NCBI GenBank assembly: GCA_016192135.1
Contig: JACPUR010000003.1
Location: forward strand, 20,543-84,542
Direction: 5' to 3'
Length of the DNA stretch: 64,000 nucleotides
From: Candidatus Tectomicrobia bacterium
Lineage (GTDB): Bacteria; UBA8248
The notes under the pieces are model-generated. The model was not told where the DNA came from, ran no database searches, and saw nothing but the letters and a program-made list of their open reading frames with translations. Every line of letters starts with the position of its first letter. The first letter of the stretch is position 1. Shown here one piece after another: positions 7,061-60,833 of the stretch. The translations under genes were made by a program, and so were the position numbers.

Positions 7061-8135
7061 TATCGCGGTCCTTCCCGGGGACGGCATCGGGCGGGAGGTG
7101 ACGGTCCAGGCGCGCAAGGTGCTCGAGGCGGCGGGCCGGAGGTTCGGGGTTTCGTTCCGGTTCGAGGAGGCCCTGTGCGGCGGGGCGGCCTGCGACGCCG
7201 TGGGGGAGCCCCTACCCCGGAAGACCCTGGACCTCTGCCGGGCGAGCGACGCGGGGCTCTTCGGCGCCGTGGGCGGGCCCAAGTGGGACAATCTGCCCAA
7301 GGAGAAGCGGCCCGAGCAGGCCATCCTGGGGCTCAGGAAGAACCTCAACCTCTTCGCCAACCTGCGCCCCGCCAAGATGTTCGACCCGCTGGTGGACGCC
7401 TCCTCGCTCAAGCCCCAGTTCGTGAAGGGGCTGGACCTCCTCGTGGTGCGCGAGGGAGTGGGGGACATCTACTTCGGCCAGCCGCGGGGCATCGAGAGGC
7501 TCCCGAACGGGGACGAGCGCGCGGTGGACACCATGGTCTACACCACCCCCGAGATCCGCCGCATCGTGAAGACGGCCTGCGAGCTGGCCCGGGTGCGCCG
7601 CAAGCGGGTGTGCTCGGTGGACAAGGAGAACGTCCTCGACAACAGCCGCCTGTGGCGCCGGGTGGCCTCGGAGGTGGGGAAGGACTACCCCGACGTCGAG
7701 CTCTCCCACATGTACGTGGACAACGCTTCGATGCAGCTCATCCGCAACCCCCTGCACTTCGACGTCATCGTGACGGGGAACATGTTCGGGGACATCCTGA
7801 GTGACGCCGCCTCCATGCTCACCGGCTCCATCGGCATGCTGGCCTCGGCCAACCTGAACGAGACGGGCTTCGGCCTCTATGAGCCGGTGCACGGCACCGC
7901 GCCGGACATCGCCGGGCAGGACAAGGCCAACCCCATCGCCGCCGTCATGTCGACGGCCATGCTCTGCCGGTATACCCTCAAGCGGCCCGACATGGCGGAC
8001 GCCATCGAGGCCGCGGTGGGCGGGGTGCTGGCGGAGGGCTGCCGCACCCCGGACATCTACACCCCGGGCGCCCGGGCGGTGGGCTGCAACGAAATGGGCG
8101 AGTTGATCGCGAAGCGAGTGGGAGGAAGCAAGTGA
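7047..8135 (+). CDS. leuB: 3-isopropylmalate dehydrogenase
   Basis: NAD-dependent oxidative decarboxylation of 3-isopropylmalate, third step of leucine synthesis. 362 residues. It begins with the family signature AYNIAVLPGDGIGREV, has GAVGGPKWDNLP near 73 (substrate loop), Lys and Tyr active-site segments (VVREGVGDIYFGQPRG, SVDKENVL) and the metal and cofactor region ending in YEPVHGTAPDIAGQDKANPI. The start is an unusual TTG at 7047 with GAGAGGCG upstream; it lies inside the end of leuD, so the two are coupled. No leuA is present in this window. Confidence 0.96.
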   Translation: MGAYNIAVLPGDGIGREVTVQARKVLEAAGRRFGVSFRFEEALCGGAACDAVGEPLPRKTLDLCRASDAGLFGAVGGPKWDNLPKEKRPEQAILGLRKNLNLFANLRPAKMFDPLVDASSLKPQFVKGLDLLVVREGVGDIYFGQPRGIERLPNGDERAVDTMVYTTPEIRRIVKTACELARVRRKRVCSVDKENVLDNSRLWRRVASEVGKDYPDVELSHMYVDNASMQLIRNPLHFDVIVTGNMFGDILSDAASMLTGSIGMLASANLNETGFGLYEPVHGTAPDIAGQDKANPIAAVMSTAMLCRYTLKRPDMADAIEAAVGGVLAEGCRTPDIYTPGARAVGCNEMGELIAKRVGGSK

Positions 8136-47014: not shown

Positions 47015-47839
47015 TCAATACGGCCGGAAGAGGGACTCGATGAGCACATCCGCCTTTGCCTGGTCCCCGTCGACGAGGAGCCGCCCGGCCCGCCTCCGCT
47101 CCGCGATGGGCGCCCGGCCGCACACCAGGAGGATCATGTCGCTCGCCGTGGCGGAGAGGCGGGCGTCGCACCGCCCGTTCTGATCCTTGAAGAGGGCGGC
47201 CTTGTCCCCGCGGGTTTCCACCTCCCACGCCGCCACCGGTGCGGAGGTTTCGAAGCGGAAGCGGCCGTCCATCCGGGGGTGCTCGGTGTTCTCCCAGAGG
47301 AAGGGGAGGCGCTCCTTGAGGATCTCGACGGCCGCGCCCAGGGCGGGGGAGGCGAGCGGGCTCTCCGGCTCGTTCCGGATGTCCCACTCGTGGAGGATGA
47401 GCTCGTAGAGGCGCTGATCGGGGAAGTTGCGGAGGGGAGTGGGGCAGCGCGGGTGCCAGCCCGGGAGGTCCAGCTCATGGGGCATGAGGCTCTCCAGGGT
47501 GCGCTGGAGCGCCCCCACCGCCTCCTCGAAGCGGTCCGCCCGCGCCGCCCCCGGCAGCGCCAGCAGCTCCTCCATCTGCTTCGCCCGGATGGCCCGGAAT
47601 TCGGGGATGTCCTTCGCCCCGAAGGGGGGCGCGAGCAGCCCCTTGCGCCCGTTCTCGATGACGCCGCGGTAGAACCGCGCCCCCGAGGTCATGTGGCTCA
47701 CCACGTGGGCCGCCGTCCAGCCGGGGCAGTAGCTGGGCGCCCGCCACCTCGCCTCGTCGAAGGTGCGGAAGAGGGAGGTGAGGCGGGGGTTCCCCCGCGC
47801 GAGCCAGGATGCCGAGGCGCTCCAGGACAGGTCCGCCAT
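47015..47839 (-). CDS. DinB/mycothiol maleylpyruvate isomerase-like protein
   Basis: 274 residues. The N-terminal part is a DinB-like four-helix bundle: ASWLARGNPRLTSLF, CPGWTAAHVVSHMTSGARFY and, near 155, LYELILHEWDIRN, which supply the metal-binding His residues of this superfamily. The C-terminal ~90 residues resemble the SCP2-like domain of mycothiol-dependent isomerases (GRFRFETSAPVAAW.. DQAKADVLIESL). The ATG at 47839 has AAGGAG upstream. A paralogue lies 570 bases away on the same strand. The true thiol cofactor and substrate are unknown. Confidence 0.75.
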   Translation of the reverse strand: MADLSWSASASWLARGNPRLTSLFRTFDEARWRAPSYCPGWTAAHVVSHMTSGARFYRGVIENGRKGLLAPPFGAKDIPEFRAIRAKQMEELLALPGAARADRFEEAVGALQRTLESLMPHELDLPGWHPRCPTPLRNFPDQRLYELILHEWDIRNEPESPLASPALGAAVEILKERLPFLWENTEHPRMDGRFRFETSAPVAAWEVETRGDKAALFKDQNGRCDARLSATASDMILLVCGRAPIAERRRAGRLLVDGDQAKADVLIESLFRPY

Positions 47840-47861
47840 GCCCGCTCCTTCAAAAAAAGGG

Positions 47862-48150
47862 GTCAATATCCCTCAATAAGCGTCACCAACCGTTACTTCG
47901 GCGGGGGCGGCGGGCCGGAGGGGGGTGGTCGGACCACGCCGCATGGGCTTTATCCATCCTTTATCCCTCAATATCCGCCAATATCCGCGACAAACAAAAA
48001 AGGGGTCTTTTTTGGTCAATATCCGTCAGTATCCGCGACGAGCGACCGGGGGGCGCCTCTTTTCGGCGTGATTATCCGTACTAACCGTTACCAAGCGTGA
48101 CCCCCAATTTGATGCGCTTTTCCCCTCAATTCCCCTCAATTCGCGAGACG
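47862..48150. repeat. Degenerate tandem arrays with exact 10-bp period
   Basis: Five short arrays, each two to four units of a degenerate 10-mer near TCAATATCCG: 47862-47901 (GTCAATATCC, CTCAATAAGC, GTCACCAACC, GTTACTTCGG), 47949-47993, 48014-48047 (TCAATATCCG, TCAGTATCCG), 48068-48103 (TTATCCGTAC, TAACCGTTAC, CAAGCGTGAC) and 48121-48150 (TCAATTCCCC, TCAATTCGCG). They fill most of the 567-base gap upstream of the minus-strand 47015-47839 gene, with A/G runs (AAAAAAGGGGTC) next to several. No coding sense found. They are not CRISPR: units are short, unspaced and diverged. Confidence 0.8.
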
Positions 48151-48222
48151 CCCCCGCCCGAGCAGGGGAAAGGCGGGCTCGCGCCGCCCGCAGGGAATAT
48201 ACGCCCCGGCCCCGGAAAGCCA

Positions 48223-48253
48223 TTTACCGCAAATGACGCCAATTTCGCGCACC
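48223..48253. repeat. 10-bp-period array, CCGCAAATGA type
   Basis: Three units in register: TTACCGCAAA, TGACGCCAAT, TTCGCGCACC. The same series occurs at 60581-60620 and a shorter one at 49260-49284. It lies 23 bases before an inverted repeat copy. Confidence 0.65.
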
Positions 48254-48275
48254 TTCGTGCTGGGGGCGGAAAAAG

Positions 48276-48368
48276 ATGTCATCCTGAGGGAGCAAAGCGA
48301 CCGAAGGATATCGGTGTGCCTTTGTCCAAGGACCAAACCGATATCCTTCGCTTCGCTCAGGATGACAT
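48276..48368. repeat. Long inverted repeat, GTCATCCTGAG family, copy 1
   Basis: Ends ATGTCATCCTGAG and CTCAGGATGACAT, with inner arms CGAAGGATATCGGT / ACCGATATCCTTCG. About 93 bases able to fold into one long hairpin. Resembles REP or MITE-like elements common in environmental bacteria; no transposase gene nearby. Confidence 0.88.
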
Positions 48369-48406
48369 GCCCTGCGGCAGCGCACGGTCGTGCTTCCCCT
48401 TGCCCC

Positions 48407-49225
48407 TCAGATCGGCCGGAACACCGCCCGCATGAGGGCCTCCGCCCTCGCCCGGTCCCCCTCGACGCGGAGGCGGCCCTGCGCCTCGCGCGCGGCCGGA
48501 TCGGCCCGGCCCGTCAGGAGAAGGAGCATGTCCCCCGTCCCCGCCCCCAGGCGGGCGTCGAAGGCATCGCCGGAAACCAAGGCGAGGGCGCCCTCCCGGG
48601 CCTCCAGGGTGAAGGCGTGGGCGGGCTCCGTCACCTCGACGCGGAAGCGGCCCGCGAGCGCCTTGTCCGGCGCCCCCTCGAACTGGCGCGGGATGCGCTC
48701 CTCCAGCACCCGCGCCACGGTGCCGATGGCCTCGGTCTCGACCGGGGCCTCCGGGCCGTTGCCGAGATCGCGGCGGTGGAGGATCACCTCGCAGAGGCGC
48801 TGGCCCGGGAAGAGGCGCAGCGGCAGGCTCCCCTTGCGGTGCCAGGTGGGCCGGTCCAGGTCCCCGGGCCCGAGGCGGGCCAGGGCCTCGTCCAGCCGCC
48901 GGTCCGCCTCGGCGAGCCGCGCGACGCGCTCCGGGCCGGGCAGGGCGAGCGCCTCCTCCATGATGGCCGCGCGCCGGGCGGCGAACTCCTCCGCCGATCG
49001 GGCGCCCAGCCCGAAGATGACCCGGCCCTCCAGGGCGGCCTCCACCCGATCCGCGTAGGAGGCCGCCCCGCCGGTCATGTGGCCCACCACCTGGGCGGCG
49101 CTCCACTCCGGGCAGAGGGTGGGCCCGCGCCAGTCCGCCTCGCTCATGCCGCGAAGGTATTCGTGGAAGCGCGCGTTCTCGCGCTTGAGCCAGGGGATGG
49201 CGATTCTCCAGGGCGCATCCGTCAT
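48407..49225 (-). CDS. DinB/mycothiol maleylpyruvate isomerase-like protein (paralogue)
   Basis: 272 residues, same architecture as the 47015-47839 gene: helical bundle with IPWLKRENARFHEYLRGM, CPEWSAAQVVGHMTGGAASY and LCEVILHRRDLGN, then the SCP2-like tail ending DRARAEALMRAVFRPI (the other ends QAKADVLIESLFRPY). The ATG at 49225 follows GAGG at 7 bases; the frame is open upstream through repeat DNA, which is clearly not coding. Flanked on both sides by copies of the same inverted repeat. Function unknown, presumably related to its paralogue. Confidence 0.74.
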   Translation of the reverse strand: MTDAPWRIAIPWLKRENARFHEYLRGMSEADWRGPTLCPEWSAAQVVGHMTGGAASYADRVEAALEGRVIFGLGARSAEEFAARRAAIMEEALALPGPERVARLAEADRRLDEALARLGPGDLDRPTWHRKGSLPLRLFPGQRLCEVILHRRDLGNGPEAPVETEAIGTVARVLEERIPRQFEGAPDKALAGRFRVEVTEPAHAFTLEAREGALALVSGDAFDARLGAGTGDMLLLLTGRADPAAREAQGRLRVEGDRARAEALMRAVFRPI

Positions 49226-49300: not shown

Positions 49301-49396
49301 GTCATCCTGAGGGAACGAAGTGACCGAAGGATATCGGTGTAGAATTCGTCTTTGCTCAAGAACCAAACCGATATCCTTCGCTGCGCTCAGGATGAC
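49301..49396. repeat. Long inverted repeat, GTCATCCTGAG family, copy 2
   Basis: Ends GTCATCCTGAG and CTCAGGATGAC, inner arms CCGAAGGATATCGGT and ACCGATATCCTTCG. Preceded at 49260-49284 by CCGCAAATGG CCGTGACTTC CGGCG, in the same order as the array and repeat at 48223-48368. Confidence 0.88.
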
Positions 49397-49416
49397 ACCC
49401 TTGCGGAGCTTTCTCC

Positions 49417-60300: not shown

Positions 60301-60360
60301 AAAAATATCCCTGAATAAGCCTGAATATCCCTTAATATCCCTGAAAACCCCTGAAAACGC
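60301..60360. repeat. 10-bp-period tandem array
   Basis: Six consecutive 10-base units in perfect register: AAAAAATATC, CCTGAATAAG, CCTGAATATC, CCTTAATATC, CCTGAAAACC, CCTGAAAACG. It lies about 150-210 bases upstream of the minus-strand prpE start. The rest of the 594-base gap 60154-60747 has no gene I can support; it also holds the array at 60581 and the tRNA promoter. Confidence 0.8.
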
Positions 60361-60580
60361 GCCAGCCGGTGGTTTCGTACGCCGCGCCACATGGGGGGCG
60401 AAAGGCGCACTCCTTTGGCATCGTCTCCAATAGTCCGCACTTTTGCGGCGCCTCCTGCCTTCATCCCCGTCGGTATTCCATCCATCGGACCGGCCTGCCT
60501 CCGGCGCGGGAGGGGTGCCGCTCCGCCCGGCGGCGGGCGCACGGCCCCGGAGGCCAATCTGGGGCGGGGGAGGGGAAAAG

Positions 60581-60620
60581 CCGTTACCGCAAATGACCGC
60601 AAATGACAGCAATTTCGCGA
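60581..60620. repeat. 10-bp-period array, CCGCAAATGA type
   Basis: Four units in register: CCGTTACCGC, AAATGACCGC, AAATGACAGC, AATTTCGCGA. It shares TTACCGCAAATGAC and AATTTCGCG with 48223-48253. A single related stretch in the opposite sense is at 61515-61535 (GGCGAAATTGCGGAAAAA). Confidence 0.7.
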
Positions 60621-60707
60621 TCGGGGGGATTTTTTTGCGGAAAGGAGGGCTTCGCCGGCGCGGGCGAGGGCAGGAGGGCCGGAGGAGCCGGTATTCAGGG
60701 CGCTCCG

Positions 60708-60747: not shown

Positions 60748-60833
60748 GCCCGGGTGGCGGAACGGCAGACGCAAGGGACTTAAAATCCCTCGGGCTCCGG
60801 CCCGTGCGGGTTCGACTCCCGCCCCGGGCACCA
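60748..60833 (+). tRNA. tRNA-Leu (anticodon UAA)
   Basis: 86 nt with encoded CCA. Acceptor GCCCGGG / CCCGGGC, anticodon stem AGGGA / TCCCT around CTTAAAA, a long variable arm CGGGCTCCGGCCCG as in class II tRNAs, and T arm GCGGG / CCCGC. No terminator follows before the convergent gene end at 60854. Confidence 0.97.

Follow-up and report, generated by a model that had tools for sequence, protein, structure and literature searches.

The degenerate 10-bp arrays of the window, that is, of the whole 64,000-nucleotide stretch of DNA analyzed here, form one half of a composite locus dispersed over the chromosome, and are homologous to a 39-bp block inside phage small-terminase (terS) genes. The other half is a promoter-like module, C, which the noncoding loci have in common with phage operons. 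The blocks keep a single orientation relative to C, fall into classes matched by individual terS genes and hold their positions between species, and the same block within intact terS genes displays anomalous codons. We give about even odds to the reading that the arrays are pac-like sites for TerS, scattered around the chromosome, and belong to a GTA-like phage system that has been domesticated. TerS binding, promoter activity of C and initiation of packaging at these loci are what we infer from the sequence patterns described below.

The DNA comes from a Candidatus Tectomicrobia MAG (G000; 41 contigs, 96.8% complete), of which ~1.1 Mb was read directly. According to the original prediction, five short arrays of 10-base units crowd a 567-bp gap upstream of a DinB-like gene and keep their register despite sequence divergence, which suggests selection for helical phasing rather than recent slippage. 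The gap does span 47840 to 48406, and five arrays can be delimited in it, all on the minus strand. Array 1 (48117–48142; GAATTGAGGGGAATTGAGGGGAAAAG) is a class-I block that reads SRELRGIEGKSAS (E 1.9e-4) and displays 27/39 identity to a terS block located at the same distance from C. Array 2 (48065–48092; GGTAACGGTTAGTACGGATAATCACGCC), a B-type block, and array 3 (48014–48033; GATACTGACGGATATTGACC), again of class I, are recognized by the array model. Array 4 (47958–47986; GGATATTGGCGGATATTGAGGGATAAAGG), also a class-I block, reads SRILADIEG (E 3e-5) and shares 28 of 39 positions with the terS block of C30, and array 5 (47859–47896; GTAACGGTTGGTGACGCTTATTGAGGGATATTGACCCC) consists of mixed B/A-type 10-bp units, with an array model match at 47867–47896 (E 0.0012). 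The A/G runs said to adjoin the arrays, such as AAAAAAGGGGTC, are present, but rather than being neighbours they are the end of the 39-bp block, corresponding in terS to the G-K codons. Over 47862–48150, identity at lag 10 reaches 0.448 (z = 6.8 versus dinucleotide shuffles), a value that 0 of 500 shuffles attained at any of the lags 4–25; a second elevation is seen at lag 20 (z 3.3), and neighbouring lags are flat. Furthermore, when an iterated 10-mer profile was run over 864 kb of the genome, it detected 17 arrays, compared with 0 in the reversed sequence that served as control. Since the period-10 excess is real and the arrays recur genome-wide, neither of the two outcomes named beforehand as speaking against the claim, no excess over shuffled controls or absence of similar arrays in the same genome, was observed.

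Two features of the window had been overlooked. First, the five arrays are only the left half of a composite locus that extends to ~48280. Its right part is module C (48188–48280, minus strand; identified by sequence model and alignment), with a −10-like box, TATATT, at 48196–48201 (minus strand; consensus TAnnTT across aligned copies) and four 10-bp units at 48220–48259 (minus strand; CCATTTACCG CAAATGACGC CAATTTCGCG CACCTTCGTG when read on the plus strand). Second, another composite locus lies at 60304–60637, with a five-unit array at 60304–60353 (minus strand; AATATCCCTG units on the plus strand) that displays the same lag-10 property as the first locus, and its own module C at 60551–60637 (minus strand), recognized by the C model. 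The unit class of this second locus (CAGGGATATT, reading SGILRDIQAY) has no counterpart among the terS genes found, and a tRNA gene is located nearby, at 60748–60830. The genes that flank the first locus are host genes and neighbouring paralogs, both on the minus strand: by Pfam, the left one (47015–47839) encodes an MDMPI_N/DinB_2 protein of the DinB superfamily and the right one (48407–49225) an MDMPI_N protein with SCP2 in place of MDMPI_C. The original prediction was right to call the neighbour DinB-like, but this neighbour has no special bearing on the arrays, as the majority of loci are found at the 3' end of genes unrelated to one another. A long inverted repeat (GTCATCCTGAGGGAGCAAAGCGACCGAAGGATATCGGT ... 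ACCGATATCCTTCGCTTCGCTCAGGATGACA), which resembles a dispersed palindromic element, occurs once on either side of the second MDMPI gene, at 48273–48363 and 49301–49398.

Aligned copies of module C cover ~93 columns with invariant features, one 10-bp unit being exactly absent in L037 and L040. On the minus strand, the consensus comprises repeated CGCGAAATTG units (n), GGTAACGGGCTTTC, N12 and C-TAnnTT, followed in most copies by a GC-rich hairpin. The module resembles a −10 box preceded by units in helical phase, and no clear −35 is present. The sequence model finds 65 copies in G000; of two congeners, one has 52 and the other, with a genome 67% complete, 22; the rest of the family yields 0–3 weak matches and 43 more distant genomes none. 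The array model has 49, 14 and 8 matches in the same three genomes. The sequence of the C units shifts coherently by species, from CGCGAAATTG in G000 to GGGAATTTGA in the congener G001.

The placement of the loci relative to genes was read from our own, approximate gene calls. The left gene has its 3' end at the element in 38 of the 57 loci examined, and convergent gaps are over-represented (22/57 loci versus 24/143 background gaps). At all 57 loci, arrays within 900 bp of C are on the strand of C and on one side of it. Many C elements of G001 are found beside the same genes and in the same orientation as those of G000, with protein identities mostly of 80–89%. In pairwise alignments of orthologous gaps, C, the −10 box and some of the arrays align and the spacers are largely unrelated; the site class at orthologous loci often switches between species, while C and the locus persist. 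Regular spacing of loci along the contigs, judged by eye from their positions, was not seen. Other short elements accompany the loci. The spacers that separate C from the arrays often contain insertions of unrelated palindromic repeats, GTAGGGGCGAACC(T)CGTGTTCGCC and GGGCGATGACAAGCATCGCCCCTAC (L018, L011, L013, L136 and others). The palindrome at 47927–47935 of the window, GGTCCGACC, is the core of TGGTCnGACCA, a motif enriched at 14/81 loci versus 3/129 control gaps; it is found at the far end of many loci (L018, L027, L034, L136 and others), is kept in the orthologous pair L136/L173 and could be a cut site or the operator of another regulator. G007, which belongs to a different genus of the family, has one more variant of the site, TGACGGATAATGACGGATAATGAAGGATAAA, in a gap where no C is recognized (L200, on C90, ~8001–8043).

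The helical register is a property of the loci as a group. Across 47 noncoding element loci, identity is 0.361, 0.315 and 0.296 at lags 10, 20 and 30, compared with 0.27–0.28 in 129 control gaps. Moreover, the lengths of class-I sites cluster at ~28–30, 38–40, 48–49 and 59 bp, in steps of 10 and not of 3, although these values come from a crude regular-expression measurement that includes few long sites, and the two short C copies are short by exactly one 10-bp unit. Length steps of 10 bp break a reading frame but keep the helical face, which argues for selection on DNA binding and not on a peptide. The proposal of selected helical phasing is therefore supported, and slippage of tandem repeats was rejected, because the same types of unit reappear from locus to locus with fixed ends and the loci themselves are retained in different species. 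Intrinsic curvature alone does not account for B-type units (TACTAAGCGT), which lack A-tracts yet hold both the register and a specific sequence. An array of the OmpR/PhoB response-regulator type was considered for GTTAC-N5-GTTAC and dropped once the arrays had been found in terS. Rho-utilization sites, which are C-rich with YC at 10-nt spacing, are a poor fit to the B-type units and to loci with a leftward gene, including that of the window. Nor is C in general a promoter of the adjacent host gene, since the left gene faces away in 38/57 loci. The original assessment that the arrays are not REP, CRISPR or iteron elements was right, the link to phage small-terminase genes lying beyond what could be viewed from the window. 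Mobile MITE or REP insertions are at odds with spacers that cannot be aligned between copies and with positions conserved between species. REP/BIME elements are likewise dispersed, intergenic and biased to 3' ends and convergent gaps, but the Tectomicrobia loci are not palindromic hairpin repeats, have unrelated spacers and are connected both with the coding sequence of terS and with a promoter module. A CRISPR array would contain near-identical repeats of ~23–50 bp with unique spacers, whereas these arrays are degenerate 10-bp tandem units without spacers; iterons, bound by Rep beside a rep gene at one origin, do not match dozens of dispersed loci, and neither gene beside the arrays of the window is a rep gene. 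As for a replication-oriented signal, the orientation of loci relative to GC skew gave conflicting results with no consistent relation.

The connection to terminases emerges from the array model R2, which was trained on noncoding arrays only and nevertheless matches inside terS genes (E 1.1e-12 on C30 of G000 and 7.9e-10 on C100 of G001), with a weak match in terS of another genus (G007, E 0.0046). The match corresponds to the codons of the first HTH helix after the GG-loop, plus the turn (SRIITDIEGKNVS), and the predicted TerS structure has helices 50–61 and 67–101 at the block (local confidence high, whole-model pTM 0.44). GC-rich terS genes write the block in rare AT-rich codons (ATA ATA, GAT ATT, AAA). 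The resulting GC3 drop is found in all six intact HTH-bearing terS genes of the genus that were examined (P 3e-4 to 8e-8), is weak in G007 and absent in terS of G008 and G009. When noncoding arrays are translated in the direction of the promoter, the terS peptide reappears (SRILRDIEGKSPSK; for the window, ASRELRGIEGKSAS and SRILADIEG), although frames change and stops occur. The link between arrays and terS is well supported by these sequence comparisons, and, like phage pac sites, the block lies within terS, where it falls on the HTH codons, most copies being located elsewhere. The orphan TerS proteins match the family of phage Mu gp27 (PF11985, phrog_426): L160 scores 33.6 bits (Pfam E 6e-8), above the curated cut-off of 28, and the other three of four, L115 (23.5), L131 (26.5) and L174 (23.9 bits), score below it and are only weakly assigned by Pfam, with phrog_426 E-values in PHROGs ranging from 1e-4 to 2e-9. 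The presence of multiple orphan TerS paralogs sets this genus apart from Mu. A sequence search of the PDB and a fold search returned no significant match for TerS, the small terminases of phages G20C and P74-26 appearing only among the insignificant ones.

Individual terS genes correspond to individual site classes, in sets that are specific to the paralog and to the species. We compared each 39-bp terS block with all noncoding loci at a cut-off of at least 29/39 identity, counting matching loci in G000/G001. The C30 block has 13/1 matches, C14 7/0, the terS fragment of C2 9/2, and the G001 blocks of C10, C5, C100 and C28 have 0/7, 0/5, 5/2 and 4/0, respectively; these counts are not independent events, because the sites share ancestry. 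Shuffled blocks have 0 matches to the noncoding loci, as do the terS blocks of the site-less genera G008 and G009. At a looser cut-off, a block is present in 38/47 (G000) and 14/17 (G001) noncoding C loci versus 0/129 gaps without C, with up to five blocks per locus. For two site classes present in G000, those matched by the blocks of C100 and C28 of G001, no matching intact terS was found in that genome. The pairing of terS paralogs with site classes provides indirect support for binding of the blocks by TerS.

The main rival explanation, which we consider unlikely, is that the arrays are relics. Orphan terS cassettes (C plus terS) would have spread long ago and decayed, leaving functionless HTH codons, and their 10-bp period would be a side effect of codons in the pattern F/I-x-x-I-x-G-K. 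Nearly every array flavour indeed has a terS counterpart, the orientation of blocks relative to C is always that seen in terS, and the decayed terS fragment at C2/L140, with an intact HTH and without a proper start, favours such a descent. However, homology ends sharply at the block, identity being 0.79 within it and 0.33/0.32 in the 45 bp on either side (random 0.29). Decay also does not sit well with as many as five blocks per locus in differing frames and with stops, with site lengths that step by 10 and not by 3, or with the persistence of C and the loci between species at 80–89% protein identity when spacers can no longer be aligned, and it leaves the AT-rich codon anomaly of intact terS genes unexplained.

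Block matches all fall on the promoter (sense) strand, with 0 on the opposite strand. This is the best argument for a role at the level of RNA, whereby C would drive short sense-block RNAs that serve as decoys for a binder of terS mRNA or as packaging RNAs. The GC-rich hairpin that follows the −10-like box in most copies would also suit such transcripts. Nevertheless, we consider this reading very improbable, since unstructured RNA offers no evident reason for a period of 10 nt, which equals one turn of DNA, and Rfam has no match in the window. Against the reading as pac-like sites, a pure DNA-binding site requires neither the strict orientation of blocks to C nor a C that no gene follows, and both features could equally come from terS ancestry or from a function of the RNA.

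A subset of C copies lies 34–90 bp upstream of a leftward start codon, and PHROGs identifies genes at this distance as TerL (GpA; E 4e-46) and as capsid/protease (E 2e-123). Others at this distance are a holin-like ORF and several genes for small terminases that resemble Mu gp27, and 189 bp downstream of another C copy lies a gene for an N-acetylmuramoyl-L-alanine amidase (E 2e-27). The same operons then carry portal, neck, minor-tail and tape-measure genes. From its position, C is probably the promoter of a dispersed phage regulon. At L127 (1–1187), L132 and L168, a small hydrophobic ORF (M..IDR.ILALIA..L.VIA.NPW) follows C and a TATAAT-like promoter and lies upstream of tape-measure-like genes; it is duplicated at several places in both species. 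On C10, ordinary host genes lie between the phage operons; by eye, they resemble genes for an ammonium transporter and an F420 ligase. Of 18 family genomes, 14 have TerL and 14 have capsid, the G001 TerL has the same host-gene neighbours as that of G000, and among the matches listed TerL is <27% identical to any phage record. TerL matches in the records MGDP01000060.1 and JACPCT010000114.1 place the genus in Candidatus Tectomicrobia. The TerS of the core cluster (L196:15291–15830) lacks an N-terminal HTH, which the other genera compared retain (e.g. L209:6050–6619); the loss falls in the genus that holds the dispersed HTH-bearing TerS paralogs and the sites. No self-replication or lysogeny genes were seen in the two phage clusters read. 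We call the system GTA-like because its phage genes are split and vertically inherited and its core TerS has lost the HTH. It has in common with GTAs phage-derived structural and packaging genes, vertical inheritance with split loci and a core TerS without the N-terminal DNA-binding domain.

That C is common to phage operons and noncoding loci, and that the blocks lie downstream of it in fixed orientation, might alternatively point to transcriptional control, with orphan TerS paralogs acting at the blocks as regulators of the phage-like regulon and of noncoding transcripts; helical phasing would suit cooperative binding on one face of the helix. We find this improbable. Only 1 of 10 phage-operon loci has a block, so the genes to be regulated mostly carry no operator, and most blocks face the 3' ends of unrelated genes.

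Under the preferred reading as pac-like sites, TerS rings would bind the blocks as they do phage pac sites, each helical turn being contacted by one HTH. Small terminases are HTH rings; for those of SPP1-like phages, a proposed model has the ring contact bent DNA weakly and cooperatively, and the pac region of SPP1 covers promoters and the beginning of the terS gene (PMC4737164). Because a composite of a promoter plus the start of terS is a pac region of the SPP1 type, each dispersed locus may be a chromosomal packaging-start (or terminase-recruitment) site. The pac of SPP1/SF6 likewise combines promoters and the terS beginning with direct repeats in DNA whose bending and reading by an HTH ring have been proposed (PMC4737164), but it is present once per phage genome, compared with ~60 chromosomal copies, mostly without a terS gene, in this genome. 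In P22, pac is located within terS, and DNA recognition by small terminases has been termed unclear and controversial (PMC9611059). The nearest precedent for packaging starts in a host genome is the pseudo-pac of P22, look-alike host sites that initiate packaging (PMC11226127); these merely resemble pac, whereas the Tectomicrobia sites are linked to a promoter, conserved in position and matched in class to several TerS paralogs. Upon activation of the phage-like operons via C, host DNA would be packaged from ~60 places, and as the core-cluster TerS has no HTH of its own, the orphan HTH-bearing TerS would supply the choice of site. We hold more tentatively, at somewhat below an even chance, the fuller scenario in which a domesticated GTA-like phage system has sown ~60 dedicated packaging-start sites over the host chromosome as copies of a pac region made of a promoter and the start of terS, each orphan TerS paralog keeps a cognate subset of them, and specificities and sites turn over together while the loci stay fixed.

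Known GTAs (RcGTA, DsGTA, CcGTA and BaGTA) likewise encode head, tail, terminase and lysis functions of phage type, in clusters that are split and vertically inherited. A core TerS without an N-terminal DNA-binding domain, described for RcGTA, has been proposed as characteristic of GTA small terminases, and no equivalents of cos or pac were known in GTAs (PMC6854486). The Tectomicrobia system differs in its apparent dispersed, terS-cognate chromosomal sites and in its extra HTH-bearing TerS paralogs. The literature searched contained nothing relevant on GTAs or prophages of Tectomicrobia. A confirmed site system would be new, since GTAs have been reviewed as not appearing to need a packaging-initiation site, with the cause of discrete packaging peaks in some GTAs, such as those of D. 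shibae, unsettled (PMC11841831). If the loci are packaging starts, dedicated pac sites that evolve on the chromosome would, to our knowledge, be described here for the first time in a GTA-like system. The system would also offer several matched pairs of TerS and site, each TerS being encoded by DNA that it may recognize, which would be useful for the problem of how small terminases read DNA. Were this true, the host would in effect choose the places from which its chromosome is exported.
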